Virus record (IMG/VR): IMGVR_UViG_3300035670_000069
Coordinates: 44,557 to 108,556 of that record
Length of the DNA stretch: 64,000 nucleotides
Strand: one strand, 5' to 3'
DNA from: a virus
Shown here: piece after piece, positions 31,235 to 62,762 of the stretch
Numbering within the stretch: the stretch's first letter is position 1
Layout: every line of letters begins with the position of its first letter
Made by a program: the position numbers and the translations under genes
The notes under the pieces: model-generated
Databases searched by the model: none
Told to the model about the DNA's origin: nothing
The model's input: the letters and a program-made list of their open reading frames with translations, nothing else

Positions 31235-31912
31235 ATGAATGAAGTAAAACCAGTAGAACCACTAAGTAATGAAACATGGCACGGACATAAAATTTTCATA
31301 GTTAAAAATTTTATAGACCCACAAGATGCAGAATTATTAATTCAAGAAATGAGAAATCCAAGCGAACAAAACGAATATCCATCATATTATAAAGATAGAT
31401 ATGGCGGAACTTCTCTTCCATATAATAAAAAAGTAATGGATATAATGATTAAGTATGGACACAAATCTAACGAAATGCATAAAAAAATAAATGGATTTGT
31501 TAATGATATTTATGTTTTTAAAGGATTTGGCTCCTGGTGGACAACTGGTACTAAGGGGGACCTACATATTGATGCACAAGGACCAGAACCCTGGATTGAA
31601 TGGAGCACTATTATGTATTTAAATGGTGATGAAAACCCTGGGGAAGAATTAGAAACTAGAGAAGATTACAAGTTTACTGGGGGTCAGATATATTTTCCAA
31701 ATCAAAACTTTGTATATAGCCCACGAAGATATTCTGCTGTATTTTTTCAAAGTGCTGGAACGGAATATATACATGGAATAACTAAAGTAAAAAGTGGAAA
31801 TAGATATACTGCGCTATATATGCATACGAGTTTACCAGATCATGCAGATCCAGATTTTCACCCTGGTCCGTTGCAATGGAAAGCAAGGAATTATCCATTA
31901 AACTATGTTTGA
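31235..31912 (+). CDS. 2OG-Fe(II) oxygenase
   Basis: A 225-residue prolyl-hydroxylase-type dioxygenase: LHIDAQGPE (HxD) near 112, GGQIYFPN near 150, YIHGITKVKSGNRYT near 180 with distal His and the 2OG-binding Arg. Strong ribosome site (AGAGGAGG) and a -10 box at 31212-31217. It overlaps the next oxygenase by 8 bases. Confidence 0.8.
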   Translation: MNEVKPVEPLSNETWHGHKIFIVKNFIDPQDAELLIQEMRNPSEQNEYPSYYKDRYGGTSLPYNKKVMDIMIKYGHKSNEMHKKINGFVNDIYVFKGFGSWWTTGTKGDLHIDAQGPEPWIEWSTIMYLNGDENPGEELETREDYKFTGGQIYFPNQNFVYSPRRYSAVFFQSAGTEYIHGITKVKSGNRYTALYMHTSLPDHADPDFHPGPLQWKARNYPLNYV

Positions 31913-32567
31913 TTATGAAGTCTTAGATTTAGGATTAGTATATTACAAAAATATACTAAAAAATCCAAACTCTTTAATTGAAAAAATTGAAGAATTAGAC
32001 GCCAGATGGCATAAAGATTCCCCTAAACCATATGAAACTAGTGTAAAGCCATGGGTGCCGTGGAAAAATGATAATGGATCTGAAGAGATATTTAATTATC
32101 AAAAATTTATTCCACAGGTAAAACATATAGCCCCTTGGGATAAATATAAAGAAGAGCAAACTCTTATCTCGTCTGAATTATTTGGAGCATTAGATGTAAC
32201 TTTAGAACATTATTCCACAGAACTTTATCCTTTTGCAAAAAAAAATATTAAATCAAGAGAGGCAACAATGCATCTTTTGAGATATGATAAAACAGGTCAT
32301 TTGCCAGCACACCAAGATCAAGGGGTAAGCACAAGGGTGTTGTCTGTATTATTATATTTAAATGATAACTACGATGGCGGAGAGATTGAGTTTAGACACT
32401 CTAATGTAAAAATTAAGCCTGAGCCTGGTAGTGTTTTATTTTTTCCTTCTAATTTCTTATATGTTCATGAAGTCTATCCAGTAACTAAGGGACCAAGATA
32501 TGCTTTGCCAAATTGGTACCATAATGTTGCTGGAGATGAGTTTAGAAATTCTACGGGGCAAGAATGA
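31905..32567 (+). CDS. 2OG-Fe(II) oxygenase
   Basis: A 220-residue dioxygenase with PAHQDQGVSTR (HxD) near 131, the family strand YDGGEIEF near 154, and FLYVHEVYPVTKGPRYAL near 183 (distal His and Arg). It overlaps the carbamoyltransferase start by 4 bases, so the enzymes are likely made together. Confidence 0.85.
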   Translation: MFDYEVLDLGLVYYKNILKNPNSLIEKIEELDARWHKDSPKPYETSVKPWVPWKNDNGSEEIFNYQKFIPQVKHIAPWDKYKEEQTLISSELFGALDVTLEHYSTELYPFAKKNIKSREATMHLLRYDKTGHLPAHQDQGVSTRVLSVLLYLNDNYDGGEIEFRHSNVKIKPEPGSVLFFPSNFLYVHEVYPVTKGPRYALPNWYHNVAGDEFRNSTGQE

Positions 32568-33997
32568 AAATTTTAGGAATTAACGAAACAACACACGATG
32601 CATCAATATCCTTAATAGAAAATGGGAACATATTGTTTGCTGGACATGCAGAAAGATATAGTAAGAAAAAAAATGATTGGTTCACTAATAATGAACTTAT
32701 TGATGAGGCTTTGAGTTATGGAAAACCAGATAGAATAGCCTATTATGAAAATAGATGGCTAAAAAAATCTAGAATTGTTACCCGTGGTGGATTTGGTGGA
32801 GGTAAGCCATACTATTTAGAAAGAAAAGATCTCAGGTGGATTCCTAGAGAATCTTTTAGCCATCATCACTCTCATGCAGCAGCAGGCTATTACACTAGCA
32901 AATTTGATGATGCGGTGGTTGTTGTGCTTGATGCAATTGGTGAATACAACACTTCAACAATTTGGATAGGCGAGGGAAGTAATTTAAAAAGAGTATACGC
33001 AAAAAATTATCCATTTAGTTTTGGATTATTTTATTCTGCATTTACACAATTAGTAGGGTTAAAGCCAAATGAAGAAGAATACATTTTTATGGGAATGGCA
33101 GCGTATGGAGATTGGACAAAGTTTTACCTTACAGTAAAAAAATATTTTCCAGATATTAATACTCAAAAATATAATTTTCATAAAGGTATAAGGGACTGGG
33201 GCCTGATAACAGAACAAGATAAATTTGATATTGCAGCAGCAGTTCAAAAAGTATATGAAGAAAGATTAGTTAATTTTATGGCTATGGCCAAACAAATAAC
33301 TGGTAAAAGAAATCTTGTTTTTATGGGTGGGTGTGCTCTTAATTGTGCAGCAAATACAATGCTCTGGAGGATGTTTGATGATGTCTGGATTATGCCAAAC
33401 CCAGGAGATGCTGGATCGTCTCTAGGAGCGGCTGCTGCAGCCTATGGAGAGCATTTAAAATGGGAGCATCCATATCTTGGCCATGATTTAGGCGGGGAAT
33501 ATCCAGTAAAATCTATTATGACAGAATTAATCAGAAATAAAATTGCTGCAGTAGCAACAGGAAGAGCAGAATATGGGCCAAGGGCACTGGGAAATAGAAG
33601 TATACTAGCAGATCCAAGAGATCCCAACATTAAAGATAAGGTTAATTTAATTAAAAAAAGAGAAATGTTTAGGCCATTTGCCCCAGTAATATTAGAGGAG
33701 CATGCAGGAAAATGGTTTGATATGAAATATACATCACCATATATGCAATATACTCCAAAATGTTTAAAGCCTGATTTAATACCATCAGTGGTTCACAAAG
33801 ACGGCACCTCTAGAGTTCAAACAGTAAATAAAAATCAGCATCCAGGACTTTACAATTTGCTTTCAGAGTGGTATGCTATAACAGGTGTTCCTATATTATT
33901 AAATACCAGCCTAAATATTAAGGGACAGCCACTTTTAAATGATCAAGAAGATATTAAAAATTGGGAAGGCCTATATGGAACCAGAATCATATCCTGA
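32564..33997 (+). CDS. O-carbamoyltransferase (NodU/TobZ family)
   Basis: Predicted transfer of a carbamoyl group from carbamoyl phosphate/ATP to a hydroxyl of a sugar or antibiotic-like acceptor. 477 residues: N-terminal ILGINETTHDAS, metal-binding HHHSH at 100-104, MGGCALN at 254-260, PGDAGSSLGAA near 282, and the carbamoyl-phosphate-binding YGPRALGNRS starting at 337; C-terminal LNTSLNIKGQP near 446. The usual C-terminus is slightly shortened. It overlaps an SGNH-type gene. Carbamoyltransferases are rare in phages. Confidence 0.85.
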   Translation: MKILGINETTHDASISLIENGNILFAGHAERYSKKKNDWFTNNELIDEALSYGKPDRIAYYENRWLKKSRIVTRGGFGGGKPYYLERKDLRWIPRESFSHHHSHAAAGYYTSKFDDAVVVVLDAIGEYNTSTIWIGEGSNLKRVYAKNYPFSFGLFYSAFTQLVGLKPNEEEYIFMGMAAYGDWTKFYLTVKKYFPDINTQKYNFHKGIRDWGLITEQDKFDIAAAVQKVYEERLVNFMAMAKQITGKRNLVFMGGCALNCAANTMLWRMFDDVWIMPNPGDAGSSLGAAAAAYGEHLKWEHPYLGHDLGGEYPVKSIMTELIRNKIAAVATGRAEYGPRALGNRSILADPRDPNIKDKVNLIKKREMFRPFAPVILEEHAGKWFDMKYTSPYMQYTPKCLKPDLIPSVVHKDGTSRVQTVNKNQHPGLYNLLSEWYAITGVPILLNTSLNIKGQPLLNDQEDIKNWEGLYGTRIIS

Positions 33998-38273: not shown

Positions 38274-38486
38274 ATGAATATCACATCAATTGAAAAAATG
38301 GAAACAATCGTAAACAATAATAAGTCCTTGTCTTGGGATGGCTGGACAGTTGTAAATAAATATAAAAGTGAAAAGGGTAGAACATCCAAATATGGCAAGT
38401 ATATTGACGGTGCTTGGTATATGACTAGAAGATTTGTGCCAGGTAAAAATGGGTGGGAAATACCAGAAAGATTTACAGATGCATAA
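38274..38486 (+). CDS. Small hypothetical protein before WhiB
   Basis: A 70-residue, basic, Trp/Tyr-rich protein (WYMTRRFVPGKNGWEIP at its end). It overlaps the WhiB start by 8 bases. Function unknown; it could partner with WhiB. Confidence 0.5.
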   Translation: MNITSIEKMETIVNNNKSLSWDGWTVVNKYKSEKGRTSKYGKYIDGAWYMTRRFVPGKNGWEIPERFTDA

Positions 38487-38766
38487 ACTTAAATGGAAAG
38501 ACAACGCATCATGTATAGATTACGATACAAATATATTTTTTGAAAAGTATGAAGACGATGAAGGTTTAAGGCCAGCAATAGACAATCTTTGTCAGGCCTG
38601 CCCCGTAGTAAAAACATGTTTTGCTGTAGGAGTTTCTAGTAAAGAATGGGGCGTTTGGGGAGGGGTCTACCTTGAAAGTGGAAATATTTCAAAAGAATAT
38701 AACTCTCATAAAAAAGATTCAGATTGGTCAAACATTTGGCAAATTTTAACATTGGATAGAGATTAA
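38479..38766 (+). CDS. WhiB-family Fe-S transcription regulator
   Basis: A 95-residue WhiB-like protein: first Cys in WKDNASC at 12, then LCQACPVVKTC near 36-46 giving the four cluster ligands, then the family turn EWGVWGGV near 54. It has a 4Fe-4S cluster and binds sigma factor in Actinobacteria. WhiB proteins are confined to Actinobacteria and their phages, so this is the best host clue in the window. Confidence 0.85.
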   Translation: MHKLKWKDNASCIDYDTNIFFEKYEDDEGLRPAIDNLCQACPVVKTCFAVGVSSKEWGVWGGVYLESGNISKEYNSHKKDSDWSNIWQILTLDRD

Positions 38767-46974: not shown

Positions 46975-47065
46975 ATAGTCAGGTCCCCTGCAGGACCTTG
47001 GGATGATTAGTTACCATCTTATTAACCTGGGCCTTCGTGCCTGAATTTCCTGCGGGGGATTTATA
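46975..47065 (+). other. Structured intergenic element
   Basis: No gene of length. AGGTCC/GGACCT hairpin at 46981-46998, a GGGC/GCCT hairpin with loop CTTCGT near 47029-47042, and long-range pairing between TCCCCTGCAGGA (46984-46995) and TCCTGCGGGGGA (47048-47059). Could be a small RNA or a 3' end; it is followed by -10 box TATAAT at 47074. Confidence 0.4.
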
Positions 47066-47073
47066 ATGTCCAG

Positions 47074-47090
47074 TATAATTATCCTATCTA
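47074..47090 (+). promoter_or_regulatory. -10 box TATAAT upstream of HNH gene
   Basis: TATAAT at 47074-47079 and 10 bases to ATG 47090; the leader would be about 3 bases. Confidence 0.35.
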
Positions 47091-47362
47091 TGACAGACAA
47101 AGAACTTCATAGGCAAAAGCAGGCTTATAAACAAAGACTGACAGAAATAAAACAGTCTAGTGGATGTGTAGACTGCGGAGAAAATAATCCAATAGTATTA
47201 GACTTTGATCATCTTAAAGATAAAAAATACAATGTATCCAGAATGATTCACGATGGTTTTTCCTGGAAATCAATTAAAAAAGAAATAGCAAAGTGCGAGG
47301 TTGTATGTGCTAATTGCCACAGGATAAGAACTCATAACAGGTTTATTGAAAATGCTAGTTAG
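47090..47362 (+). CDS. HNH-type endonuclease-like protein
   Basis: A 90-residue protein: CVDCGENN near 22, LDFDHLKDKK near 35 (the His of the motif), and VVCANCHRIRTH near 68 (CxxCH). This is a compact HNH nuclease. ATG 47066 is an alternative start. It may be a free-standing homing nuclease or act in packaging; no intron is seen around it. Confidence 0.7.
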   Translation: MTDKELHRQKQAYKQRLTEIKQSSGCVDCGENNPIVLDFDHLKDKKYNVSRMIHDGFSWKSIKKEIAKCEVVCANCHRIRTHNRFIENAS

Positions 47363-47538
47363 ATATTTTTAATGTGGTTGATTATGGCATCTGATAAATT
47401 TTTATCAAAATGGTGATGGCCAGTTGCTAATTTTTCTAATTGTGGTTGCAAAGAAAGTACTATCTTTTCTTTAGTGGCCTGCATAATTTGATGAGTCAGT
47501 ATTTCTGCTTTTTGTTCTGTAGTTAATGATTCTTCCAT
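47359..47538 (-). CDS. Small helical protein
   Basis: A 59-residue protein, strongly helical and charged (EESLTTEQKAEILTHQIMQ). TAAAAT ends 6 bases before its ATG on the - strand. Its stop overlaps the HNH stop by 4 bases. Unknown. Confidence 0.5.
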   Translation of the reverse strand: MEESLTTEQKAEILTHQIMQATKEKIVLSLQPQLEKLATGHHHFDKNLSDAIINHIKNI

Positions 47539-47563
47539 ACCTTAATTTTACCATAACATATGA

Positions 47564-47576
47564 TATACTATTTCTA
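47564..47576 (+). promoter_or_regulatory. Leaderless promoter, TGA-TATACT
   Basis: TATACT at 47564-47569 with TG just upstream, then 6 bases to ATG 47576. Divergent from the - strand gene at 47538. Confidence 0.5.
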
Positions 47577-48661
47577 TGCCATATCATGTAGGTGCTAAAG
47601 GGTCATACGGGTGTTCTGGATACCCTGCCTTAAAAGACACAGGAGAGGTTATGGGGTGCCATAAGACTCGCCGTGAGGCAGCAGCACAGATCTATGCTAT
47701 AAACCGCTCTGAGGGCAATATAGGCAAGGCTATGGTCAAAGAGGGCGATATGGTGATGGCCCCACACGAAGAAGAAATGTATGTTGGCCGTGTAGTTCAT
47801 GTAATGACAGAAGGTATGCTTGGAATGCCAGGATCAGAATATAGTATTGAGGCTACTTCAACAGAGCCTGCTATACTTATCCAACTGTTTGAAATGGAAG
47901 AAGGCGGTCTTGAAGAGACTGAATATTTCGTTGGAGCAAAAGCATCGGAGGTAATGGTAATGCCATCATTAGAAGAAAACGTAGGCATGGATAAAGCATA
48001 CGAAGGATGCGGATGTCCAATGTGTAAAGAATTAGATGTAACTTGTGACCAATGCCCACAATGTCAGTCTGGAGATATGAAATCGGATTGTTGTGGTAGT
48101 GTTGAAAAGAAATCGCCATGTTGGGAAGGATATGTACAGCGTGGAATGAAGCCAGGTAAAAATGGTAGCATGGTTCCTAATTGTGTCCCTGTTAAAAAAG
48201 CAGATGATCTTTGGGAAGATGATGATACAGTTGTTTACGAAACAGAATCGATGTTAAAGGCTGAAGGATATTCTCCACCAGCAGGTGCTCGTGCAGCAGC
48301 ACGTAAAGCGATTAGATTTAAAGAACAAGGTAAGGCAAAAGGTGCGGGTACATCAGTAGGATGGACTCGTGCAGGACAGTTAGCAAGAGGAGAATCACTT
48401 TCTCTAAGCACTGTTAAAAGAATGTACTCTTATTTTTCTCGTCACGAGGTTGATAAAAAGGGGAAGGATTGGGCTAATCAATCAAATCCGTCTAATGGGT
48501 ACATAATGTGGTTAGCATGGGGTGGGGATGCTGGCTATTCTTGGTCACGTCGTATCGTGAATGCAGAAAAAGATAAGGCATTGTTTGCTGATACCTTTAA
48601 TACAATAGAAAAACAAAGCAAGAAAATTCGTGGTAGCGGTAATGTCTTCTGGCAAATATAA
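47576..48661 (+). CDS. Phage head-associated type protein with modular domains
   Basis: A 361-residue protein. N-terminus has a short CSGYPALKDTGEVMGCHKTRREAA motif known from phage structural proteins; the middle is rich in Cys (four CxxC-type groups near 144-170); the C-terminus (SPPAGARAAARKAIRFKEQ near 242 to GYIMWLAWGGDAGYSW near 315) is a domain often linked to capsid maturation proteins or to prohead protease. The enzyme or scaffold part is missing. Role in the head is inferred. Confidence 0.55.
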   Translation: MPYHVGAKGSYGCSGYPALKDTGEVMGCHKTRREAAAQIYAINRSEGNIGKAMVKEGDMVMAPHEEEMYVGRVVHVMTEGMLGMPGSEYSIEATSTEPAILIQLFEMEEGGLEETEYFVGAKASEVMVMPSLEENVGMDKAYEGCGCPMCKELDVTCDQCPQCQSGDMKSDCCGSVEKKSPCWEGYVQRGMKPGKNGSMVPNCVPVKKADDLWEDDDTVVYETESMLKAEGYSPPAGARAAARKAIRFKEQGKAKGAGTSVGWTRAGQLARGESLSLSTVKRMYSYFSRHEVDKKGKDWANQSNPSNGYIMWLAWGGDAGYSWSRRIVNAEKDKALFADTFNTIEKQSKKIRGSGNVFWQI

Positions 48662-48782
48662 AAGACACGATAAGTTTAACCCAATTCAAATTAAAGATGG
48701 AATGGTTGTTCGTCTAAGAAAAGATGGAACTATAAAAGCAATACTTGGTAAATATGGAGAATACAAAAAAAATACTAAATAA
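48642..48782 (+). CDS. Tiny basic protein
   Basis: A 46-residue Lys-rich protein overlapping the end of the previous gene by 20 bases; convergent overlap of 8 bases with the RsmI-like gene. Unknown. Confidence 0.45.
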   Translation: MSSGKYKRHDKFNPIQIKDGMVVRLRKDGTIKAILGKYGEYKKNTK

Positions 48783-49554
48783 TTTTAGAAATTTTGCCAT
48801 CAATTACTATACAGCAATTTCCAGGTAATCTTTCATTGTTTTTAACAAAATCATATAAATACTTTAATGTTCCCCTAAACACAGATTGTGGATGACCATA
48901 ATCTTCTGAAGTTAAATTATACATCAAAACGGCCTTTCTGTTTTCTCCAAATGTTTCCATTGCTTCTTCCATTAATTCAAAAATGTGATCGCTATATGGG
49001 CCAGGTAAATCTGGTATAACATTTCTTTCTCTGTTTTTAATTAAAAAAACCATTGGGTTAACTCTATTTTTTAACTCTTTCCATTCATGGCCTCTGTCCC
49101 AACTATCAAAAGACAAAAACCCTTCAAAAGAAAATTTATGCAAACATCCAGCAATAGCAACAGCAGAAAGTACAACTGAAGGTCCAGGTGTAGCATATAT
49201 ATTTATATCATTTTTTATTGCTTCTCTTATTAGAAGTTCTCCTGGATCTGCTATTCCTGGCATTCCCTCATCAGAAACTAAATAAACATCTTCTCCATTT
49301 TTTAAAATATTTATAATTTTATCTAAATTTTCTAACTCTAAAGATTTTCCTGGCTCTCCAGCCAAAGAGACATATTCGATTGGGATTAATTCTCCAGTTG
49401 GATTTGGCGCATTAAATTTTTTTAACTGATCAAATAAAATATCTATCTGCTCTACAACTAAATATTTTGCTTTTTGTATAGACTCTATAAAAAATGGCGA
49501 TGCATCTTTTTTATTTCCGATTGGCCCACCAACTATGTACAAAGTTCCGCTCAT
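48775..49554 (-). CDS. RsmI-like SAM-dependent methylase
   Basis: A 259-residue tetrapyrrole-methylase-fold protein: LYIVGGPIGNKKDASPFFIES at the start (canonical LYIVATPIGNLxDIT), YLVSDEGMPGIADPGELL near 90, IYATPGPSVVLSAVAIAG near 115. RsmI makes 2'-O-methyl-C1402 in 16S rRNA. A phage copy could tune the ribosome, or the domain may act on another RNA. The C-terminal part is diverged. Confidence 0.75.
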   Translation of the reverse strand: MSGTLYIVGGPIGNKKDASPFFIESIQKAKYLVVEQIDILFDQLKKFNAPNPTGELIPIEYVSLAGEPGKSLELENLDKIINILKNGEDVYLVSDEGMPGIADPGELLIREAIKNDINIYATPGPSVVLSAVAIAGCLHKFSFEGFLSFDSWDRGHEWKELKNRVNPMVFLIKNRERNVIPDLPGPYSDHIFELMEEAMETFGENRKAVLMYNLTSEDYGHPQSVFRGTLKYLYDFVKNNERLPGNCCIVIDGKISKII

Positions 49555-49634
49555 TAGTATATATATCCTTTAGGTTTTTTTAATTCTTTTTTAATTTTTC
49601 TAATTAAAAGCCACTGTTTTATTTTTTTAATCAT
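49554..49634 (-). CDS. Tiny basic helix protein
   Basis: A 26-residue protein, MIKKIKQWLLIRKIKKELKK..., amphipathic and very basic. It overlaps the upstream stop by 8 bases and the RsmI-like start. Translation is plausible but not proven. Confidence 0.35.
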   Translation of the reverse strand: MIKKIKQWLLIRKIKKELKKPKGYIY

Positions 49635-50643
49635 GTTCTATCCATCCCCTTTTTACTAATTGGTCATAATATTGTTCTGCCCAATCATTCTGTAATAATC
49701 TTCCAGGATGTCTATCTCTAAAACTTATATCATCATGTTTTAGGGTGAGTCCATTTTTTATAACGTTTTGTGCCAAGTCTGTAGCAGATACTGGCTTTAA
49801 ATAGAAAAAGGTTTCTGTAAATAAACTTGAACAATGTATATTGATTGACTCTATATAATGCCAGGTAGTCCATAATAATTTTGTACCTATTGAATTGCAA
49901 TACTCTTGAAAAAGCATCATGGCAGTTAGAAAAACTGGAAAATGAACTCTGTGCATTTGCAGATCAGATTCTTCATAGTTAGTTTTTATTACATTATCTC
50001 CATATGGAACTTTTTGATGATATATCCAATCACTTTCCCAAAACCTTAGTATATTTGGCATATGAATTACTAATATATCTGGCGCTCCATAATTAACCAC
50101 GTATTCTCTAAAATTATGTACAATCTTATGCCAGCCACTTCCACCCCTACCTAAATTATAATATCCACTAACATTATTTTTTTCTTTAATTTTATTGTAT
50201 AAGATATGGCTCCAAGTGTCTTCTATGTTTCCCCCAACCCCTTCTGTGTTTGAACATCCAGAAAAAACAATATGTAGCCCGTCATGGTTTTTAGAAAATT
50301 CGTCACATCTAAACCAATCAGAGTTATACTCATATCTAACTTTCCATGTTTTTCTATCTTCTTCTATATAAGATAACTCAGGAGGAATAAAATCTAAAAC
50401 ATGCTTATTGTTTTCTAATCTATAATTTGTCTCATGCCCCAAGATATCTATTATTTCTAAATTTTCTCGTCCCATATAGGCAGCCTCAGCCCACGTTCTA
50501 TCAAAAGTATAAAATGGCAATGATAAAAAATTTTGATAATTAATTATATATGGTGATCTGGAATCTTTAGAATAAACAGAATGTGATTGAGAAATATCAT
50601 TAAAATTTGATTCACATAGCCTTAAATAATCATCATGCTTCAT
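49627..50643 (-). CDS. SGNH/GDSL-hydrolase-like protein, copy 2
   Basis: A 338-residue paralog of 33975: IVFSGCSNTEGVGGNIEDTW near 116 (block I Ser), YYNLGRGGSGWHKIV near 149 (block II), DRHPGRLLQNDWAEQYYDQL near 315 (Asp/His end). It overlaps a methyltransferase gene by 11 bases. Confidence 0.6.
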   Translation of the reverse strand: MKHDDYLRLCESNFNDISQSHSVYSKDSRSPYIINYQNFLSLPFYTFDRTWAEAAYMGRENLEIIDILGHETNYRLENNKHVLDFIPPELSYIEEDRKTWKVRYEYNSDWFRCDEFSKNHDGLHIVFSGCSNTEGVGGNIEDTWSHILYNKIKEKNNVSGYYNLGRGGSGWHKIVHNFREYVVNYGAPDILVIHMPNILRFWESDWIYHQKVPYGDNVIKTNYEESDLQMHRVHFPVFLTAMMLFQEYCNSIGTKLLWTTWHYIESINIHCSSLFTETFFYLKPVSATDLAQNVIKNGLTLKHDDISFRDRHPGRLLQNDWAEQYYDQLVKRGWIEHD

Positions 50644-51337
50644 TGTTTTTCCTTATATATATATCATAAAATCCTAAATTATGCAATGCAATTGCATCTA
50701 CAGACCAATTTTTATTTTTATCTAAAAACTCATTCACTGTTTGAAAAGTCCCGTATGGCATATCTTCAATTATACCATCATAGATTAGATAATCATTTAA
50801 ACCTATAATGCCACCAACATCTACTAAATTGGCACAGTGTTTTATACATTCCCTGGTTTGATATCTATCATTGCTAATATCAATATATATAAAGTCATAT
50901 TTTTTATTTAAAGATGGAAGGATATCTAATGCGTCACCTTTGACGGTGTTTACGTTTTTTCTATCTTTAAATAAATCAATTATATATTTTTCATGAGTTT
51001 CTGGTGTATATAAAAGTTCATGCTTAAAGCCTTCACACTGACAACTGCCAAATTTTCTCCAAGACCAACATTTTAAATCTTGATTGTATAAGTCTAATAA
51101 GTCTGCCGATGAAGCATCAGATTCTTCTATAAACATTTTTGCCGAATAGCCCCAAGCAACTCCTACCTCTAAATACTTAATTCCCCTTTTTAGACTTTTA
51201 GCATATTCTTCTCTAGAACTAAAAAGTTTTGCACCCAATAATTGGTTTTGAGATATTTTTGGGCTATCCTCTATTTGATCATTATTGATAATTTTAATTT
51301 CGTTTTCATTAAATGGAGGAACTGGTTTTTTAGGCAT
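50633..51337 (-). CDS. Class I SAM methyltransferase
   Basis: A 234-residue protein: IKYLEVGVAWGYSAKMF near 50 (motif I), VNTVKGDALDILPSL near 125, YDFIYIDISNDRYQ near 142 (motif IV-like), NLVDVGGIIGLNDYL near 165. Layout of Methyltransf_24-type enzymes. Target may be a small molecule or glycan. Confidence 0.65.
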   Translation of the reverse strand: MPKKPVPPFNENEIKIINNDQIEDSPKISQNQLLGAKLFSSREEYAKSLKRGIKYLEVGVAWGYSAKMFIEESDASSADLLDLYNQDLKCWSWRKFGSCQCEGFKHELLYTPETHEKYIIDLFKDRKNVNTVKGDALDILPSLNKKYDFIYIDISNDRYQTRECIKHCANLVDVGGIIGLNDYLIYDGIIEDMPYGTFQTVNEFLDKNKNWSVDAIALHNLGFYDIYIRKNNEA

Positions 51338-52006
51338 TTATGTATTCCTTAAAATTAAATCACGACAGGATAAATATTTTGAATGCAAATCTTTAAAAAT
51401 ACTAAAAGAGTTTACCATTTCTTTTGCTTCATAATATACATCTGGCTTAGTCTCTACTGGTACAGCATTGTTATATCCAATATGTCCTTTATTATGAATA
51501 ATGATTCTGTCTTTTGCTAACCTAATTAATTCTTCTATGTCTGAATTATTTGCATCGACGTTTATAAGTTTTTTTACAACCAAAGATATATCTTGAGTAA
51601 CCTGTTCAAATGTAAATGGATATAAATTTTCAAAATTATTCTCTATTCCATACATGTATCTTTCATAAACCTCTGCTTGATCAAAAACTAATGTTCTAAG
51701 ATCTGGAACATTGTGTTCATGTGGCATTGGTATATTTGAAGTAATAGTATTACCCATACCACCCATTGTTTTGGTAACAATTGATGGGATTATGTCATAA
51801 GGATTTCTTAATATTACGGTTTGTTTGATATCCTCAAATTTTGATAATAAAAAAACAGGAGAGTTGGCTCTAATTATAAAATTTTTTCTATTAACTTCTC
51901 CTATACTAATATTTTCATCATATCCTTTATAATGATAAAGTATAAACTGAAGCCACGCATGAGCGCTTCTAGGCTCAGAATTAATTACTATTCTTACTGG
52001 ATCCAT
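51338..52006 (-). CDS. Sulfotransferase-like protein, copy 1
   Basis: A 222-residue P-loop protein: SEPRSAHAWLQFIL near 9 (5'-PSB, altered) and TVILRNPYDIIPSIV near 62 (3'-PB). The 5' loop deviates from YPRSGTTW, so donor binding should be tested. It would use PAPS. Confidence 0.55.
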   Translation of the reverse strand: MDPVRIVINSEPRSAHAWLQFILYHYKGYDENISIGEVNRKNFIIRANSPVFLLSKFEDIKQTVILRNPYDIIPSIVTKTMGGMGNTITSNIPMPHEHNVPDLRTLVFDQAEVYERYMYGIENNFENLYPFTFEQVTQDISLVVKKLINVDANNSDIEELIRLAKDRIIIHNKGHIGYNNAVPVETKPDVYYEAKEMVNSFSIFKDLHSKYLSCRDLILRNT

Positions 52007-52166
52007 TAGAACCTTCCTTTAATATTTTAATTATACCACTAACTATTTCCGAATAGTCTATATCTAATATCATATTTTTATCTTTTAAAGTATAAATTTT
52101 AATATCTTTCATTGCATTAAATAGATATAATTCTATTTTTTTTGCAATATCATCATAATTAATCAA
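51981..52166 (-). CDS. Hypothetical protein
   Basis: A 61-residue protein; TTG start at 52166 is preferred because GAGG lies upstream and the previous gene ends there. Residues about 1-45 are helical and acidic. Unknown. Confidence 0.4.
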   Translation of the reverse strand: MINYDDIAKKIELYLFNAMKDIKIYTLKDKNMILDIDYSEIVSGIIKILKEGSNGSSKNSN

Positions 52167-52722
52167 AACTAAGCCTCGATTTATTTTTTGTTTTTGTTCC
52201 CCAAACTGGAATGGCATATCTAAATCCAGAAATTATTTCTTTTATTTCATGAATATAGGGAGATGGAAAAATTACTAAACTACCACGCTTAGGTTTATAA
52301 CAATAACTTAATTCTGGAAAACATAATTCTCCTCCAGAAAAATTATCATTTAAATATATTACCCCACTTAACGATATTGCTTCAGCCCCTTTATGATTGT
52401 CTGGATGAGGACCCAACATTGTCTGTGGACCCATTACTGAAATCCATATTGCATAAGGAAAAATTTCTTCTTTTATAGAATAAAAAGATAATGCCTCATC
52501 TATAAATTTTTCATAATATTTTTTTAAAATATGAATAATTTCAGCATGCTCTTTTATATCGTGGTTTTCTGGTGGTTGTGAATCCCACCTATCTCTTCTA
52601 TTAGACTTTCTAAATTTTTTATTATTGTTTTTGTTAGCGTCAATATAATTAATTAAAATATTGATATCATCTTCTGAAATAAAATCAGGAATTTCTTTAA
52701 TGCATTCTAGAGTGTGATCCAT
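52159..52722 (-). CDS. 2OG-Fe(II) oxygenase
   Basis: A 187-residue dioxygenase: LGPHPDNHKGAEAISL (HxD) near 103, FSGGELCFPEL near 126, YIHEIKEIISGFRYAIPV near 155 (distal His and Arg). Start at ATG 52722; a GTG lies three bases upstream. Overlaps the CDGSH gene. Confidence 0.85.
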   Translation of the reverse strand: MDHTLECIKEIPDFISEDDINILINYIDANKNNNKKFRKSNRRDRWDSQPPENHDIKEHAEIIHILKKYYEKFIDEALSFYSIKEEIFPYAIWISVMGPQTMLGPHPDNHKGAEAISLSGVIYLNDNFSGGELCFPELSYCYKPKRGSLVIFPSPYIHEIKEIISGFRYAIPVWGTKTKNKSRLSFD

Positions 52723-52918
52723 CACAAAATGGTGCCCTCCCAGATTGACCACAAACACATTTCTTTTTCCATTTAAGTTGTTCTTTATTTAAATCAATAT
52801 TAATAGAGCCTTTTAAAATAAAAACTTTATAGATATCATCATTAATTTCTTGTATTTCTGCAGCATAACCATTGTACAATTCATGGTTTTGTATTAAAAC
52901 ATAATCTCCTATTTTCAT
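52697..52918 (-). CDS. CDGSH iron-sulfur domain protein
   Basis: A 73-residue protein ending in the exact CDGSH motif C-x-C-x2-S-x3-P-x-CDGSH with C54, C56, C65 and H69. The domain binds a 2Fe-2S cluster through three Cys and one His and is linked to redox sensing or cluster transfer. The first 50 residues form a small KOW/SH3-like beta domain. Strong ribosome site AAAAGGAG. Phage-encoded CDGSH proteins are very rare in my knowledge. Confidence 0.8.
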   Translation of the reverse strand: MKIGDYVLIQNHELYNGYAAEIQEINDDIYKVFILKGSINIDLNKEQLKWKKKCVCGQSGRAPFCDGSHSRMH

Positions 52919-52945
52919 GATTCTCCTTTTGTAACTATTATACAG

Positions 52946-53018
52946 TACCCCTGGTTGGATTCGAACCAACGCTGTCACGATTTTAAGTCGTGTGCCTCTA
53001 CCACTGGGCTACAAGGGC
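52946..53018 (-). tRNA. tRNA with UAA anticodon, short variable loop (Leu-type?)
   Basis: Acceptor GCCCTTG pairs with CAGGGGT (two G-U pairs); D-stem GCC/GGC; anticodon stem CACGA/TCGTG with loop CTTAAAA (anticodon TAA); T-arm GTTGG-TTCGAAT-CCAAC. Anticodon UAA reads UUA (Leu), but the variable region is only 5 bases, not the long arm of tRNA-Leu. Confidence 0.75.
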
Positions 53019-53022
53019 AAAG

Positions 53023-53096
53023 TAGAGCAGGTAGGACTTGAACCTACGATAGCCGAATTATGAGTTCGGGGCCTTGACCAACTTGGCTACTGCTCC
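53023..53096 (-). tRNA. tRNA with CAU anticodon (Met or Ile2)
   Basis: Acceptor GGAGCAG pairs with CTGCTCT (one G-U); anticodon stem CCGAA/TTCGG, loop CTCATAA, anticodon CAT; T-arm GTAGG-TTCAAGT-CCTAC. The CAU anticodon could be elongator Met or lysidine-modified Ile reading AUA. AUA is very frequent in this phage. Confidence 0.8.
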
Positions 53097-53130
53097 TTAG
53101 TCTTTTAACCATTACAGGGACATGCCCAGG

Positions 53131-53610
53131 TCACTCTTTATCTTTCTTAAACCATCCACCTACATTTGGATCTAAGGCTTTACCGTCTAATTGAAGCCCA
53201 TCAGGATATACTGTATGAAATACTCCATCCATAAGGCTACCCTCTTGTTCAACAACAAAACCATTTTCTCTATCAAATAATTGATATTCCATAGAGTGAA
53301 TATTGAACGCTTTTCCTAAGATATAAAATACTTTTTGAACATCCAAAGATCCGCAGGTATATAAATCAAACTGTAATAGTCCTGGATCAACTTCATCCCA
53401 TATATGAAAAGCAATATGGCTAGTCTCAATCATAACAATAGCCGTCAATCCTTTGTTTCCATCCTTATCTACATAAGATGAAAATGGCCCTTTAATAATC
53501 TTCATGTCAATTTCTTGTACTAAATTAGTTAAAAAATCAATAGCCTCTTGTTCGGACTGCATAGGATTTTTAACTTTAGCGTTTACTAATAAGTGCTTGT
53601 GATATATCAT
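53131..53610 (-). CDS. speD: S-adenosylmethionine decarboxylase-like protein
   Basis: A 159-residue SpeD-type protein: VMIETSHIAFHIWDE near 59-73 with the pyruvoyl-forming Ser64, then LLQFDLYTCG near 77-86. SAM decarboxylase gives decarboxylated SAM for spermidine synthesis. It is longer than the class 1 enzyme (about 125 residues), with an extra C-terminus. Ribosome site GGAAGGG. Similar genes are reported in cyanophages. No spermidine synthase gene is seen here. Confidence 0.8.
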   Translation of the reverse strand: MIYHKHLLVNAKVKNPMQSEQEAIDFLTNLVQEIDMKIIKGPFSSYVDKDGNKGLTAIVMIETSHIAFHIWDEVDPGLLQFDLYTCGSLDVQKVFYILGKAFNIHSMEYQLFDRENGFVVEQEGSLMDGVFHTVYPDGLQLDGKALDPNVGGWFKKDKE

Positions 53611-53611
53611 T

Positions 53612-53692
53612 TTAATATGCCCTTCCTTGTAGGTAAGCGAGATAGTTAAGTATACCAAACATTAAAAATATCAATCCTATAGCCCATTTCAT
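53612..53692 (-). CDS. Tiny membrane protein
   Basis: A 26-residue protein, one membrane segment (KWAIGLIFLMFGILNYLAYL). Its start overlaps the stop of 53689 and its stop sits one base before the speD start, so it is in the same operon. Confidence 0.5.
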   Translation of the reverse strand: MKWAIGLIFLMFGILNYLAYLQGRAY

Positions 53693-54048
53693 TTATTTAT
53701 AATCCTAAACGCATCGCCTGTTTCTTCATCTTCATAATCCCAAACATAAGCATTGATAAACTCTGGCTTTTCCCAGTATGGGACTCCATCTGAATCGTAA
53801 TCATTCCATCCATCTCCACTCATATCAAAACTCCATTCATAGAATGAACCAAACTTATAATATACTGGCCATGTAATCTTCCAAATAATTGAATGTAATT
53901 TATACCGCCATCCAAAATCTTCTAATTCATCCTGATATGAGATACGCATAATTGCCCATCCTGAGATATCTCCACACATGTTGGCAAACCATCGTAATGG
54001 TGGGCGGGACTTATGAATCTTAATACTAGTTTCTATTTGGTCCACCAC
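53689..54048 (-). CDS. Hypothetical protein
   Basis: A 119-residue acidic, Trp/Tyr-rich protein without motif. Overlaps both neighbours. Unknown. Confidence 0.5.
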   Translation of the reverse strand: MVDQIETSIKIHKSRPPLRWFANMCGDISGWAIMRISYQDELEDFGWRYKLHSIIWKITWPVYYKFGSFYEWSFDMSGDGWNDYDSDGVPYWEKPEFINAYVWDYEDEETGDAFRIINK

Positions 54049-54196
54049 GAACTAACTCCCATTCCCCAGTTTCTTTAGCAACATATACATCTCCTGTTTG
54101 TCTATCAACTAAGATATATTTTTCAGGGCATTTAGTTTTAAGTGTTACAACCACAGATTTTTCTAATTCTGCAAACTCAATAGACTTTCTACTCAT
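54026..54196 (-). CDS. Small hypothetical protein
   Basis: A 56-residue protein; start at 54196 (MSRKSIEF) because the previous tiny gene ends in ATGA there. Contains a beta-strand-rich centre (KYILVDRQTGDVYVAKETG). Unknown. Confidence 0.5.
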   Translation of the reverse strand: MSRKSIEFAELEKSVVVTLKTKCPEKYILVDRQTGDVYVAKETGEWELVRGGPNRN

Positions 54197-54342
54197 ATTG
54201 CAACTCCAATTAAAATTCCGATAATAAAAGATCCAATTGCCACCGACCAATAAAAAGTGCGTTGAATGTAATTCCTTTCAATTTCTCTTCTGATACTGCG
54301 AGGTATTTGAAAGTCAACATCATAATCATCAATATAAGTCAT
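54193..54342 (-). CDS. Small membrane protein
   Basis: A 49-residue protein with one C-terminal membrane segment (FYWSVAIGSFIIGILIGVAI). Starts inside the previous stop (ATGA) and ends in the next start. Confidence 0.5.
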   Translation of the reverse strand: MTYIDDYDVDFQIPRSIRREIERNYIQRTFYWSVAIGSFIIGILIGVAI

Positions 54343-54449
54343 TTATGCTCTTTCTTCACATGTCTATCCATTGTATCATGGGCAAAAATGCCCCATCTTA
54401 ACTCTATGTTTTTGCCACAGATGTTACAAATAACAAATCTTTCTGTCAT
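54339..54449 (-). CDS. Tiny zinc-finger protein
   Basis: A 36-residue protein with CNICGKN near 8 and HDTMDRHVKKEH at the end, a C2H2-like zinc finger. First gene of an overlapping run of tiny genes. Leaderless promoter upstream. Confidence 0.55.
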   Translation of the reverse strand: MTERFVICNICGKNIELRWGIFAHDTMDRHVKKEHK

Positions 54450-54455
54450 ACATTA

Positions 54456-54484
54456 AGTATACCTTAAAATCATCATTTTGTAAA
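54456..54484 (-). promoter_or_regulatory. Leaderless promoter on - strand
   Basis: - strand TTTACA (54484-54479), 17 bp, TATACT (54461-54456), then 6 bases to ATG 54449. A near-ideal sigma70 promoter. Confidence 0.65.
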
Positions 54485-55030
54485 ATCTTTAATGCACATT
54501 GAGTCTAAATCATTATAAAAATCTTCAAATATTTTTAAATCAACATTGTTTATTTTTTCTAAGACAGAATTATACTGTAATACATTTTTGCTGCTAACCA
54601 AATGCCTAGAATCTGGGTTATCGATTATAGTATTTGTAAAATTATTATTTTTTATATTAACTTTAAGTTCTTTTGATAAAAATAATATAATCTTTTTAGG
54701 ATTGTCTATCAAATCTAAATATTGTATAAAAATATCTATATTTTTTTTAGCATAATTATAAAATAAAGCATATTCTTTTTTTGCAGCCTCTAAATAAAAA
54801 TCTAATGTTTGTTTTTTTCTTGTTGGATCAATTTCTTCATAATATAATTCCATGCTTATCCAAGATGCCATAGCCTCTTTTGGGTCTCTTATAATTGTTA
54901 TTGTTTTATCAAAATCATGTTTTTTTAAAAGGGAATGGGTCCATCCACATTCAACATCAAGCATTTGTAATATATGTTCTCTTAATAGATGCTGGCCAGA
55001 TCTTGGATAGGTTATAAGTAACACACTCAT
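54473..55030 (-). CDS. Sulfotransferase-like protein, copy 2
   Basis: A 185-residue protein with LLITYPRSGQHLL at the start (5'-PSB loop) and TITIIRDPKEAMASWIS near 43 (3'-PB). These are the two PAPS-binding blocks. It is shorter than copy 1 at 51338 and closer to the canonical motif. Acceptor unknown. Confidence 0.65.
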   Translation of the reverse strand: MSVLLITYPRSGQHLLREHILQMLDVECGWTHSLLKKHDFDKTITIIRDPKEAMASWISMELYYEEIDPTRKKQTLDFYLEAAKKEYALFYNYAKKNIDIFIQYLDLIDNPKKIILFLSKELKVNIKNNNFTNTIIDNPDSRHLVSSKNVLQYNSVLEKINNVDLKIFEDFYNDLDSMCIKDFTK

Positions 55031-55147
55031 AATATAAATGATATCATATTAAATAAGTATTAAAGTTCGGCGCAAAATAGAAATGTTTAACTCCTTATGA
55101 CCTACACGGTCAATAAAGTTTAATATTCTTAATATATGCCGTTGCAG

Positions 55148-55258
55148 TCAGGACGGCTGTAGAGACTCATATCCACATCTAGCGCACAAAGTGCGGGTAT
55201 ATGAATTATCGTCTATTACAACCTCTATGACAGATACGAATGAACTATGTAAATGCAC
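55148..55258 (-). CDS. Tiny zinc-binding protein
   Basis: A 36-residue protein ending LCARCGYESLQPS, with EVVIDDNSYTRT before it; CxxC plus HxH at the start could hold zinc. GTG start at 55258, no ribosome site, TAAAAT box about 8 bases upstream. It explains hairpins that look like RNA structure. Confidence 0.45.
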   Translation of the reverse strand: MHLHSSFVSVIEVVIDDNSYTRTLCARCGYESLQPS

Positions 55259-55298
55259 AATGGATTATTTTACAACCATTTAATGTTACTGGTTAGTA

Positions 55299-55400
55299 TC
55301 AGATAAGTGTAAAGAATACGGCTGCTGCAATAAGAACTAGTGCTGAAAGGACAATCTTCTGCTTTGTTTCCTTAGACCATTCTTTAGTATCAATCGCCAT
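55299..55400 (-). CDS. Tiny membrane protein
   Basis: A 33-residue protein, charged start and one membrane segment (IVLSALVLIAAAVFFTLI). GGAGAT before ATG. Unknown. Confidence 0.5.
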   Translation of the reverse strand: MAIDTKEWSKETKQKIVLSALVLIAAAVFFTLI

Positions 55401-55408
55401 GATATCTC

Positions 55409-55528
55409 CTATCCCATATGCCTAAATGTAAAATGCTTTGAGCAGACATCAATAATCTTGCCAGTGTCTTTTTCTGGCTGAGTAAATTCTGCCTTAGCAT
55501 CACAGTAATAACATTTATTGTTTGTCAT
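55409..55528 (-). CDS. Tiny zinc-ribbon-like protein
   Basis: A 39-residue protein with CYYC near 5 and a later Cys and His (VCSKHF). TATAAT on the - strand (55542-55537) ends 8 bases before its ATG. It starts 16 bases from the previous gene. Confidence 0.5.
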   Translation of the reverse strand: MTNNKCYYCDAKAEFTQPEKDTGKIIDVCSKHFTFRHMG

Positions 55529-55544
55529 AATATTTTATTATACA

Positions 55545-55700
55545 CTATCCGTGAACATACCAAGTAGGTGGTTCTTGTAAATCCAAAGCATCTATAATTT
55601 GTTCTGCAAGATCTTTGGACAATTTGTCCTTGTGCTTGCCTTTAATATAATCGTATATTATTTCTGAGATTATCTCAATCTGGGATTCTTTAGATAGCAT
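55545..55700 (-). CDS. Small helical protein
   Basis: A 51-residue protein, acidic-basic helices (SKESQIEIISEIIYDYIKGKHKDKLSKDLAEQIIDAL). Start MLSKE at 55700 is 7 bases from a - strand TATAAT; MDIML upstream would overlap it. Confidence 0.5.
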   Translation of the reverse strand: MLSKESQIEIISEIIYDYIKGKHKDKLSKDLAEQIIDALDLQEPPTWYVHG

Positions 55701-55707
55701 GATGTCC

Positions 55708-55713
55708 ATTATA
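55708..55713 (-). promoter_or_regulatory. -10 box for leaderless mRNA (- strand)
   Basis: - strand TATAAT, 7 bases before ATG 55700. Divergent from the next promoter, with only 17 bases between the two -10 boxes. Confidence 0.5.
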
Positions 55714-55730
55714 CGGGGTATTTGCGAGGG

Positions 55731-55743
55731 TATAATAAAGCCA
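55731..55743 (+). promoter_or_regulatory. -10 box TATAAT for leaderless mRNA (+ strand)
   Basis: TATAAT at 55731-55736, 6 bases before ATG 55743. Confidence 0.5.
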
Positions 55744-56060
55744 TGGACCCCACTATCCTATATATAATATATCACCCCCAATATAATGCCATAAAGGTAG
55801 GAATAGGGGATATTTCTGGGAAAAGGTTTAAAGCCCATAGGACCAAAGGATGGGAATTAGTAGCATATTGGTATTTTCAAGATCGGCGGGGAGCCAGAAG
55901 AGTAGAATCTATAGTAGTAAATACACTAAGGGATAAATATGGACATTTCCTCAATAAGGATAATATGCCATATGGAGGATATACGGAGACATTTAATGCC
56001 AAGAAGATATCCAAAAAGAGATTAATGGCTATGGTCAATAAGGCTATAAAGGGGCTTTAA
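55743..56060 (+). CDS. GIY-YIG/T5orf172-like protein
   Basis: A 105-residue protein: ILYIIYHPQYNAIKVGIGD near 4, RFKAHRTKGWELVAYW near 29, RRVESIVVNTLRDKYG near 51. This follows the GIY-YIG superfamily order (strand-Tyr, IKVGI, R..H, E). It is in the one + strand gene of a - strand area, which suggests a mobile nuclease or a separately controlled gene. Confidence 0.6.
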   Translation: MDPTILYIIYHPQYNAIKVGIGDISGKRFKAHRTKGWELVAYWYFQDRRGARRVESIVVNTLRDKYGHFLNKDNMPYGGYTETFNAKKISKKRLMAMVNKAIKGL

Positions 56061-56061
56061 T

Positions 56062-56595
56062 CTACCCCGCCTTATGCACAAATATCTGTAGAGTTATCCT
56101 AAAATCTGATTGAACAGGAGATACTCCATGAGGAGTACCTTCCTCAACTAATACTGCAGTGTTGAATGTTGGTGCAATAGCATTCCAGGAATCTCCATCC
56201 TTCCAATGAAAAATACCACCATCATTATATTTCCAATTCGGATTTAAATATACGGTTATTGCCTTGCTATATCCAGTATCTGGATGAGAGGTTATTAATG
56301 ATCCCCTGCCCCATATATTTACTGTGGTTGCTGTTGTGGTTATAGGTTTTTCAATTGTAAAATCTAATACCCCTTTTTCAACCAATATATTTTCTATTTC
56401 TTTTTCCATTTCTTCAGTAGGCCTTATGCATAAAACAAGACCACTGCCAATTCTTAATGGACTAGGCCAAGCAAGATTAGTTGAGATATGCCTTATAGGC
56501 TCTTTTATTTCTTCACCTTTGGCAATAGACAAACCATACTCATATAGCCTATTTGCTAAATCATCTGATATTAATTTGTCGTATTTTGTAATCAT
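56062..56595 (-). CDS. 2OG-Fe(II) oxygenase
   Basis: A 177-residue dioxygenase: TSHPDTGYSKAITVYLNPNW (HxD) near 101, GGIFHWKDG near 126, TPHGVSPVQSDFRITLQIF near 153 (distal His and Arg). Leaderless promoter upstream. It stops one base before the + strand gene ends (convergent). Confidence 0.8.
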   Translation of the reverse strand: MITKYDKLISDDLANRLYEYGLSIAKGEEIKEPIRHISTNLAWPSPLRIGSGLVLCIRPTEEMEKEIENILVEKGVLDFTIEKPITTTATTVNIWGRGSLITSHPDTGYSKAITVYLNPNWKYNDGGIFHWKDGDSWNAIAPTFNTAVLVEEGTPHGVSPVQSDFRITLQIFVHKAG

Positions 56596-56601
56596 AATTT
56601 A

Positions 56602-56607
56602 ATTATA
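56602..56607 (-). promoter_or_regulatory. -10 box TATAAT for leaderless oxygenase mRNA
   Basis: - strand TATAAT at 56607-56602, then TAAATT (6 bases) and ATG 56595. Confidence 0.5.
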
Positions 56608-56717
56608 CATCATGAATTATCCACAGAAAAATCTTACTGATTATATTTCTAAATAGTCCTAAAGTGGAGTGAAGTGGAGGATAGTGGAGGATGGAGCGTT
56701 TTCGAAGGGGGCGCCGT

Positions 56718-57443
56718 AAAAACCATAAACCTTCAAACCATATATCCTCATATACCATATATGCCCAATATTGTCAAACCATATATCGTTGGGCATTATA
56801 CATGCAATATAATGGTTTGTCAAATTGGATATATGCATGAATATGCCCATAATGTTTCAGGGATTTTTATCGAAATATCGTAATAAGTTTTAAATAAATC
56901 CAAAAAAGATTTAAAAGGTTTGAAAAAGTTTTAAAACCAAGGAATATGGTTTGTTATTGCTTATTAGGGGTATTTGTGTTATGATCGTAATCTTTTTTAT
57001 TCCCCGCCTGGTGCTGCGCCCGCCATTCGGCCCTGTCAAAAAGCGGCGGGGTAAAAGAAAAATACTTTCCTAATCCAATAACCTTAGTAAAAGCAACAAA
57101 GGCATTATGTAAACCAATATCATCTTCATTTGCTGCTTTTGGAAAATTCATTCTATAAAAATGTCTTGGCATAATATAATCATAACACCATTTATATGGT
57201 TTGAAAATATTTCAGGGATTTTTAATGTTTGATCGTAATACCTTTTTTCAAAATTCTGTTGTATTTTCCCCCCCGAATATTGCGGGGTATAAAAAAGATA
57301 CCCAATACCCTATATACAATAAACCATTATACATTCAATACATATGGTTTGACAAATAGAAAATTATTTGATATATGGTTTGAAGGATATTTCAGGGATA
57401 TCGTAATATTCTTCGTAATAAGATATTTGGAAATTATGGTTTG
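56718..57443. repeat. Repeat-rich control or origin-like region
   Basis: Gene-poor, AT-rich. CAAACCATA-type repeats: + orientation at 56734 and 56775; - orientation at 56812 (CAAACCATT), 56945, 57194, 57342, 57373 and 57435. A 30-bp motif ATTACGAT-N8-AAAATCCCTGAAA (- strand) at 56855-56884, 56962-56991, 57210-57239 and 57390-57419. The - strand order motif, 6-8 bases, CAAACCATAT holds at three of them. Also inverted repeat ATGCCCAA/TTGGGCAT (56761-56796) and hairpin CCCCG/CGGGG at 57271-57287. Nothing else is seen in 56608-56953. Confidence 0.6.
56954..57172 (-). CDS. Small hypothetical protein inside repeat region
   Basis: A 72-residue protein, MPRHFYRMNFPKAANEDDIG... with a Trp/Arg/Gln-rich C-terminus. 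TATGAT ends 6 bases before its ATG on the - strand, a leaderless start. Its last 30 bases coincide with one copy of the 30-bp motif, so the 3' end may be a by-product of the repeat. A GC-rich inverted repeat CCCCGCC/GGCGGGG (57002-57051) lies inside it. Confidence 0.45.
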   Translation of the reverse strand: MPRHFYRMNFPKAANEDDIGLHNAFVAFTKVIGLGKYFSFTPPLFDRAEWRAQHQAGNKKDYDHNTNTPNKQ

Positions 57444-57462
57444 AAATAGGTCCCGAGAAATC

Positions 57463-57765
57463 TCAGTCGAAACTACCTGCTTCAAACAAAAGATCATCTA
57501 ATGTTTCATAGTATTTTGTATTGTCCACCTGTAGTGTTTCACATAGTAGATCCCAGGCTTCGTTTATATATGCCTCTGCTGTTTCTGTTGACTTGACTAT
57601 CCCCTCGTTTATTGCAAAAGCAAGGGGTAGTGCAAGATCACAATAATCTACATAAGATTCAAATGCTTCTTCATCTCTATAGTCCATCCAGAATTTATCT
57701 AATATCTCACACTTCTTAGAAAAGTCTATAGTGGGTTTGTCTGAAGTCACTGCTCTCCTTTTCAT
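57463..57765 (-). CDS. Hypothetical protein
   Basis: A 100-residue acidic, helical protein (FSKKCEILDKFWMDYRDEEAFESYVDYC). Start at MKRRAVTSDK chosen over an earlier Met because it lies closer to the end of the previous gene. First of the right-arm small genes from this side. Confidence 0.5.
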   Translation of the reverse strand: MKRRAVTSDKPTIDFSKKCEILDKFWMDYRDEEAFESYVDYCDLALPLAFAINEGIVKSTETAEAYINEAWDLLCETLQVDNTKYYETLDDLLFEAGSFD

Positions 57766-57928
57766 GTTGCGCTGATTCAACAATTTCTACAAGCCTATTA
57801 TACGGCACACTTGGACTTGTTCTAGCCAAATAAACACCAACAAGGTCTAAGTCAATTCTAACATCAGAAACAATGTCAGATAATCTTTTGGCTATCTTTT
57901 CTTCAGGAGTCATTATTCGTCTAAGCAT
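57716..57928 (-). CDS. Hypothetical protein
   Basis: A 70-residue protein, helical, with MTPEEKIAKRLSDIVSDVRIDL. Ribosome site GGAGGTAAG before ATG 57928. Overlaps the next gene. Unknown. Confidence 0.5.
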   Translation of the reverse strand: MLRRIMTPEEKIAKRLSDIVSDVRIDLDLVGVYLARTSPSVPYNRLVEIVESAQHEKESSDFRQTHYRLF

Positions 57929-58077
57929 TACTTACCTCCAATAAAGTTGATAGCACCCTCTAAAGCCTCTAGTGCGCCTGTGAGGTATTCTGTTTGATAC
58001 CCTTCGTTCTCAGCAAGGACATCACGGATTTCGTCTGCCTCAGTAATCAAATAATCTAGTATCTGTTGTGTATTCAT
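57928..58077 (-). CDS. Small helical protein
   Basis: A 49-residue acidic helical protein (MNTQQILDYLITEADEIRDVL). AGGAGAAC before the start at 58077. Its stop overlaps the next start. A structured stretch without a gene follows at 58078-58171 (hairpin GGGGA/TCCCC near 58154). Confidence 0.5.
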   Translation of the reverse strand: MNTQQILDYLITEADEIRDVLAENEGYQTEYLTGALEALEGAINFIGGK

Positions 58078-62760: not shown

Positions 62761-62762
62761 GT

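Follow-up and report, generated by a model that had tools for sequence, protein, structure and literature searches.

The CDGSH gene and its surroundings

The stretch of DNA analysed here, called the window, covers 64,000 nt of a virus record that is 108,556 bp long. Since this record carries genes for a terminase, a tail protein, a DnaB helicase, a primase, a phage DNA polymerase, a UvsX-like recombinase and a Cas4-like exonuclease, the virus is a tailed phage. It also encodes a WhiB-like regulator, a gene that the literature takes to mark phages of actinobacteria (PMC6802176), and the host is therefore probably an actinobacterium. WhiB was found in 15 of the 18 other records bearing the gene family described below, the three records without it being short fragments. 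No named phage matched at the DNA level over positions 44000-64000 of the window, while searches for Gp23 and Terminase_6C, which gave matches in none of the phages, say nothing either way. The main features are as follows:

31905-32567 (+), 2OG oxygenase
32564-33997 (+), NodU/TobZ-type carbamoyltransferase
38434..38766 (+), WhiB-like regulator (PF02467, 43.4 bits)
49627..50643 (-), SGNH-hydrolase-like protein (motif only, Pfam match absent)
50633..51337 (-), Methyltransf_24-type methyltransferase with an invariant C90-x8-C99-x-C101-x4-H106 loop (CWSWRKFGSCQCEGFKH)
51338..52006 (-), sulfotransferase-like protein (motif only, Pfam match absent), recurrent in the cluster
52159..52722 (-), 2OG-Fe(II) oxygenase (PF13640, 45 bits) with the active-site residues HPD...H...R kept
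52697..52918 (-), KOW/SH3-like and CDGSH protein P0001, an ORF of 73 aa from ATG to TAA, with a barrel (residues 1-50) and a predicted [2Fe-2S] module (residues 51-73, C54-x-C56...C65-D-G-S-H69)
52945..53018 (-), tRNA-Leu(UAA), ending 26 nt upstream of the start of the P0001 gene
53022..53096 (-), tRNA-Met(CAU)

P0001 presents the PF09360 (zf-CDGSH) pattern, C-x-C-x2-(S/T)-x3-P-x-C-D-G-(S/T/A)-H, with the four ligands present, its motif residues being C54, C56, S59, P63, C65, D66, G67, S68 and H69. Pfam PF09360 matched residues 35-70 with 34.9 bits (cut-off 29.5), and reading the window in all six frames gave the motif once, compared with an expectation of 2.5e-8 from base composition. The first-pass annotation had proposed a phage gene with an exact CDGSH motif, which is borne out by the Pfam score and by the phage genes elsewhere on the record, and its numbering of C54, C56, C65 and H69 was correct. 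The ATG of P0001 is preceded by a Shine-Dalgarno-like AAAAGGAG, a good ribosome-binding site. At the other end of the gene, the 2OG oxygenase gene begins with an ATG (52722) among the codons for the CDGSH motif. The two genes share 26 nt; that they overlap had been noticed at first reading.

A predicted KOW-like barrel joined to a CDGSH module

AlphaFold2, run with the family alignment, modelled residues 1-50 of P0001 as a five-stranded barrel in which a short turn precedes the final strand (pLDDT ~90), which is the arrangement of SH3/KOW-like barrels, while the CDGSH part, modelled without metal, reached a pLDDT of only 47-65. Foldseek and VIA-align matched the barrel model to KOW domains, and a profile search matched residues 3-50 to Spt5 KOW (E 7e-6) and the CDGSH tail of the family to CISD3, type-6 CISD and mitoNEET. 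What had been a guess at first reading, an N-terminal SH3-like part, is thus backed by the structural model, by the fold comparisons and by the profile match.

Relatives of P0001 were collected from IMG/VR, where a first scan gave 4 and a profile scan gave 32 loci, 1 of them non-barrel; pattern and neighbour scans added more, and the family alignment holds 25 distinct coding sequences. In 16 family sequences K52, C54, C56, P63, C65, D66, G67 and H69 were invariant and S59 and S68 nearly so. Among 21 close family pairs dN/dS was 0.00-0.33, indicating that the barrel-CDGSH gene is maintained by purifying selection; the P0001 ORF is a real gene, selectively maintained. Scanned with a subset of the family alignment, cellular genome contigs gave at least 386 CDGSH loci; a barrel profile hit none of the 80 listed, and a rare cellular homologue may still exist. 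A search of 396 genomes from the phylum to which a Rhodococcus belongs matched the family in 100 of them, all but one through the CDGSH part only, and the sole exception covered residues 21-71 inside a long unrelated frame. In the data searched, the combination of barrel and CDGSH was found only in viruses. No family in PHROGs matched P0001. We also considered an SH3 domain lacking CDGSH as a stand-in in other phages, and found no case of it, only two altered motifs (CDSSH and CDASH).

CDGSH proteins (CISD/NEET, PF09360) have been sorted into types 1-7 by Lin et al. 2011 (PMC3174974), who do not mention viruses; the barrel-CDGSH proteins, unlike the seven types as described there, are viral. 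P0001 shares with all of them the 17-residue motif, the four ligands, S/T7, P11 and D14-G15-S16-H17. In contrast, the hydrophobic Phi1 that precedes the first Cys in types 1-7 is K in P0001 and K, S, T, N, R, P, A, L or M across the family, and the P motif (GP-Phi-X-Phi) beside the N-strand of types 1-7 has no conserved GP counterpart, residues 36-40 of P0001 (GSINI) being unconserved in the family alignment. Types 1-7 have a dimerising beta-sandwich, whereas the monomer model of P0001 has the N-terminal barrel instead. Since Phi1 and the P motif are unconserved and the sandwich is apparently replaced by a barrel, none of the seven types fits. The best PDB sequence matches to P0001 were the CISD3-like tandem CDGSH proteins 6avj and 3tbn (E 7.5e-6 and 3.1e-5), which have two motifs and lack the barrel, while P0001 has one motif and a barrel. 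Residues 1-52 are alike in fold to the KOW domains of Spt5/NusG (VIA Z 7.7-8.9, rmsd 0.9-1.5) and to NdhS (Ssl0352), the SH3-like subunit of cyanobacterial NDH-1 (Z 8.1, rmsd 1.3), the latter a fold-list lead only; these proteins lack CDGSH, and the likeness is that of a common small barrel, which does not imply a shared function. Judged by its motif, barrel-CDGSH is a CDGSH protein, and its predicted fold makes it a new architecture of this group. A CDGSH protein without the known dimerising sandwich offers a test of the rule that CDGSH modules must pair.

CDGSH modules in phages

Using P0001, a type-4 CDGSH and a CDGSH-2OG fusion as tblastn queries against 50,697 named phage records, we found one genuine CDGSH, encoded on a contig from faeces that is unverified, so that the first description of a phage version as very unusual holds for named phages. 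It does not hold for IMG/VR, where an exact-motif scan gave at least 120 contigs with CDGSH against a chance expectation of order one or fewer, a count that is an order-of-magnitude estimate only, because some contigs may be host sequence. Nearly all of the matches listed fall in open frames. The phage-database search, which had been set beforehand as a test, thus had a divided outcome: CDGSH in general is fairly common in IMG/VR and the barrel architecture is not. A literature search, with most subscription papers and preprints outside its reach, found no report of phage CDGSH.

The forms among the IMG/VR matches listed were barrel-CDGSH, very short proteins (24-60 residues), type-4-like proteins, tandem CISD3-like proteins and fusions to 2OG oxygenases. 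Phages retain only genes that pay, and many of them keep CDGSH modules in several forms: barrel-CDGSH, for which selection is demonstrated, minimal and 2OG-fused. Free-standing CDGSH miniproteins of 24-45 residues, without a dimerisation module, were seen in L008, L018, L020, L027, L068, L070, L076 and other contigs, and six non-barrel CDGSH genes (L020, L027, L068, L070, L092 and L116) have a tRNA gene no more than 400 nt away. The unverified phage contig L313 (MT835643, human faeces) encodes a type-4-like CDGSH protein whose P motif contains GPL, and a match (H1) in MT836504 was spurious.

Neighbouring enzymes

The most constant neighbour of the barrel-CDGSH family is the methyltransferase. 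In 29 of 30 family loci it was found 157-4691 nt downstream, in the same orientation, and it is followed in most loci by the SGNH-hydrolase-like gene. CDGSH genes were present in 27 of 80 methyltransferase loci and absent from 53, indicating that the methyltransferase does not need the CDGSH protein. Its conserved loop reads CWSWR-x-FG-x-CQC-x3-KH and was modelled at low confidence by AlphaFold2 without metal; in this phage methyltransferase family (window, L003, L066, L105 and others) the C-x8-C-x-C-x4-H residues may form a metal site. That the Cys/His loop is due to CDGSH was ruled out, as it is equally conserved in phages without CDGSH.

Of 19 records with a family member, 18 also encoded 2OG oxygenases, a count taken over CDGSH-bearing phages that may only mirror this kind of phage. 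The distance to the nearest 2OG gene was shorter than under uniform placement, both for the barrel-CDGSH family (Fisher p ~0.03) and for all 39 CDGSH places (Fisher p 0.0017), although related records are not independent in either test. The overlapping 2OG gene was found only in the window virus and its near-identical relative L001, while in L002-L004 the nearest 2OG oxygenase lies 5.6-6.8 kb from the CDGSH gene; as this neighbour is not conserved in the family, it was rejected as an obligate partner. The early suggestion of a possible service to neighbouring iron enzymes therefore gains from the frequency and proximity of 2OG genes and from the fusions found elsewhere, and loses in that the adjoining 2OG gene is private to one lineage. 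In the window and in L003, L066, L105, L113 and L120, the barrel-CDGSH gene overlaps or abuts the enzyme gene that follows it.

In L066, L105, L113 and L120, counterparts of the genes at 31905..33997 lie directly downstream of CDGSH and the methyltransferase, the order running, in broad terms, from 2OG through barrel-CDGSH, methyltransferase and 2OG-like to a further 2OG gene and, where the locus extends that far, the NodU/TobZ carbamoyltransferase. In the window, the 2OG-like, 2OG and carbamoyltransferase genes lie 19-20 kb from CDGSH on the opposite strand, and the region 31235-33997 represents one half of a module, split off here, which in other phages directly adjoins CDGSH. This row (+) consists of two 2OG-like genes, with a Pfam match in the second only, and the carbamoyltransferase.

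CDGSH-2OG oxygenase fusions

Among the IMG/VR matches listed, CDGSH and a 2OG oxygenase shared one continuous reading frame in 10 contigs (L012, L013, L021, L069, L072, L074, L081, L098, L100 and L123), several of them from phages without WhiB. Both parts were recognised by Pfam in three confirmed fusions:

L072, 8195-9034 (-)
L123, 2756-3634 (+)
L013, 8635-9366 (+)

The CDGSH part of these three scored 25-29 bits, just below the Pfam cut-off, because the motif alone is present, and in L013 and L123 there is no ATG start near the CDGSH/2OG junction. Like P0001, the fusions are phage-encoded CDGSH modules tied to a 2OG oxygenase; unlike P0001, they are single polypeptides with a minimal N-terminal CDGSH of ~20 residues and no barrel. 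They provide the most direct evidence, at the level of sequence, for a putative functional pairing of CDGSH with 2OG oxygenases, and together with the gene couplings they give concrete candidate partners for CDGSH.

Proposed function of P0001

To our knowledge, the roles of prokaryotic CDGSH proteins are largely unknown. For CDGSH/NEET proteins, cluster transfer activity is described in PMC4598119 and electron transfer in PMC9490426, and their [2Fe-2S] clusters are described as labile and transferable (PMC4598119, PMC9737848). We infer that P0001 binds such a cluster from its motif, and that it serves iron enzymes only from gene context and from the CDGSH-2OG fusions of other phages. The reading we prefer, with a probability of about 0.42, is that P0001 is a [2Fe-2S] accessory for electrons, iron or clusters docked on phage modification enzymes. 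The C-terminal module of this small soluble protein would bind a labile 3Cys-1His [2Fe-2S] cluster, and docking on a partner would fall to the N-terminal barrel and the conserved basic linker (K49, K52). Through overlapping or abutting genes P0001 would be co-produced with the enzymes of the modification island, namely 2OG-Fe(II) oxygenases, the Cys-rich methyltransferase, the sulfotransferase-like protein and the carbamoyltransferase, and by supplying electrons, iron or clusters it would keep them active during infection. Co-expression with metal enzymes and the 2OG fusions elsewhere favour such an accessory role. Weighing against it are a 2OG neighbour that varies across the family, the different and shorter CDGSH form of the fusions, and the many methyltransferase loci that do without CDGSH.

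The main rival, which we consider unlikely, is an RNA- or tRNA-linked protein that would contact tRNA or the ribosome through its barrel and basic linker and whose cluster would serve or sense tRNA modification with the methyltransferase and the oxygenases. tRNA genes were present in the locus of 21 of the 23 distinct family genes, in 8 of 29 methyltransferase loci without CDGSH (absent from 21/29) and in 13 of 82 other CDGSH phages, fractions that are rough because locus lengths differ. In the family, the nearest tRNA gene shared the strand of the barrel-CDGSH gene in all 21 loci that have one, and it lay within ~60 nt of that gene (<400 nt from the motif) in 11 of the 23 distinct sequences (placement p 9e-4), while in the 8 tRNA-bearing methyltransferase loci without CDGSH it was on the other strand in 7. 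Moreover, the barrel resembles KOW domains, and the best solved-structure sequence match of the methyltransferase was TrmR, a tRNA 5-hydroxyuridine methyltransferase (E 1.3e-6), which also appeared in the Foldseek results. A tRNA-linked role retains some probability in view of the neighbouring tRNA arrays, the likeness of the barrel to KOW domains and the similarity of the methyltransferase to TrmR. However, tRNA arrays are ordinary landing sites of phage cargo genes, Foldseek placed the small-molecule and sugar O-methyltransferases MeT1, TomG and COMT at least as high as TrmR, and the carbamoyltransferase, glycosyltransferases and sulfotransferase-like neighbours look like glycan or small-molecule chemistry. 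A more specific form of the tRNA-linked reading is less probable still: an RNA-binding Fe-S protein, encoded in tRNA arrays, that would act alongside the TrmR-related methyltransferase and 2OG oxygenases and pass on the electrons or clusters needed to hydroxylate and methylate the tRNAs of the phage itself.

Compared with the accessory role on modification enzymes, we find it rather improbable that P0001 donates its cluster to another Cys-rich phage protein, such as the methyltransferase loop, WhiB or the Cas4-like nuclease. The near-constant methyltransferase downstream, its invariant loop of low model confidence without metal and the presence of WhiB in most family records would suit such a donor, but the loop is only a putative cluster site and is equally conserved in CDGSH-free phages. 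We give a similarly low standing to a redox, iron or nitric-oxide sensor in which the cluster switches the KOW domain, for example on RNA polymerase as in NusG/Spt5; the KOW-like fold of the N-terminus and the lability of CDGSH clusters in the literature are consistent with it, whereas transcription-related neighbour genes are absent and RNA polymerase binding is purely putative. A structural zinc knuckle with no redox role is the least probable reading. In its favour, the motif by itself cannot separate Fe-S from Zn, and the hydrophobic position 1 and P motif of all solved CDGSH structures are missing here; against it, P0001 retains the residues that hold the 2Fe-2S site (Ser/Thr7, Pro11, Asp14, Gly15 and Ser16).

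Glycosyltransferase-61 genes, two recognised by Pfam and a third by eye, lie at 38766-43349 (+) of the window with a HAD-hydrolase fusion, and suggest a phage glycan island. The modification island is flanked by a TP_methylase (RsmI-like, 48775-49554, -) and an S-adenosylmethionine decarboxylase (53131-53658, -), and several RsmI-like paralogues recur in related phages.
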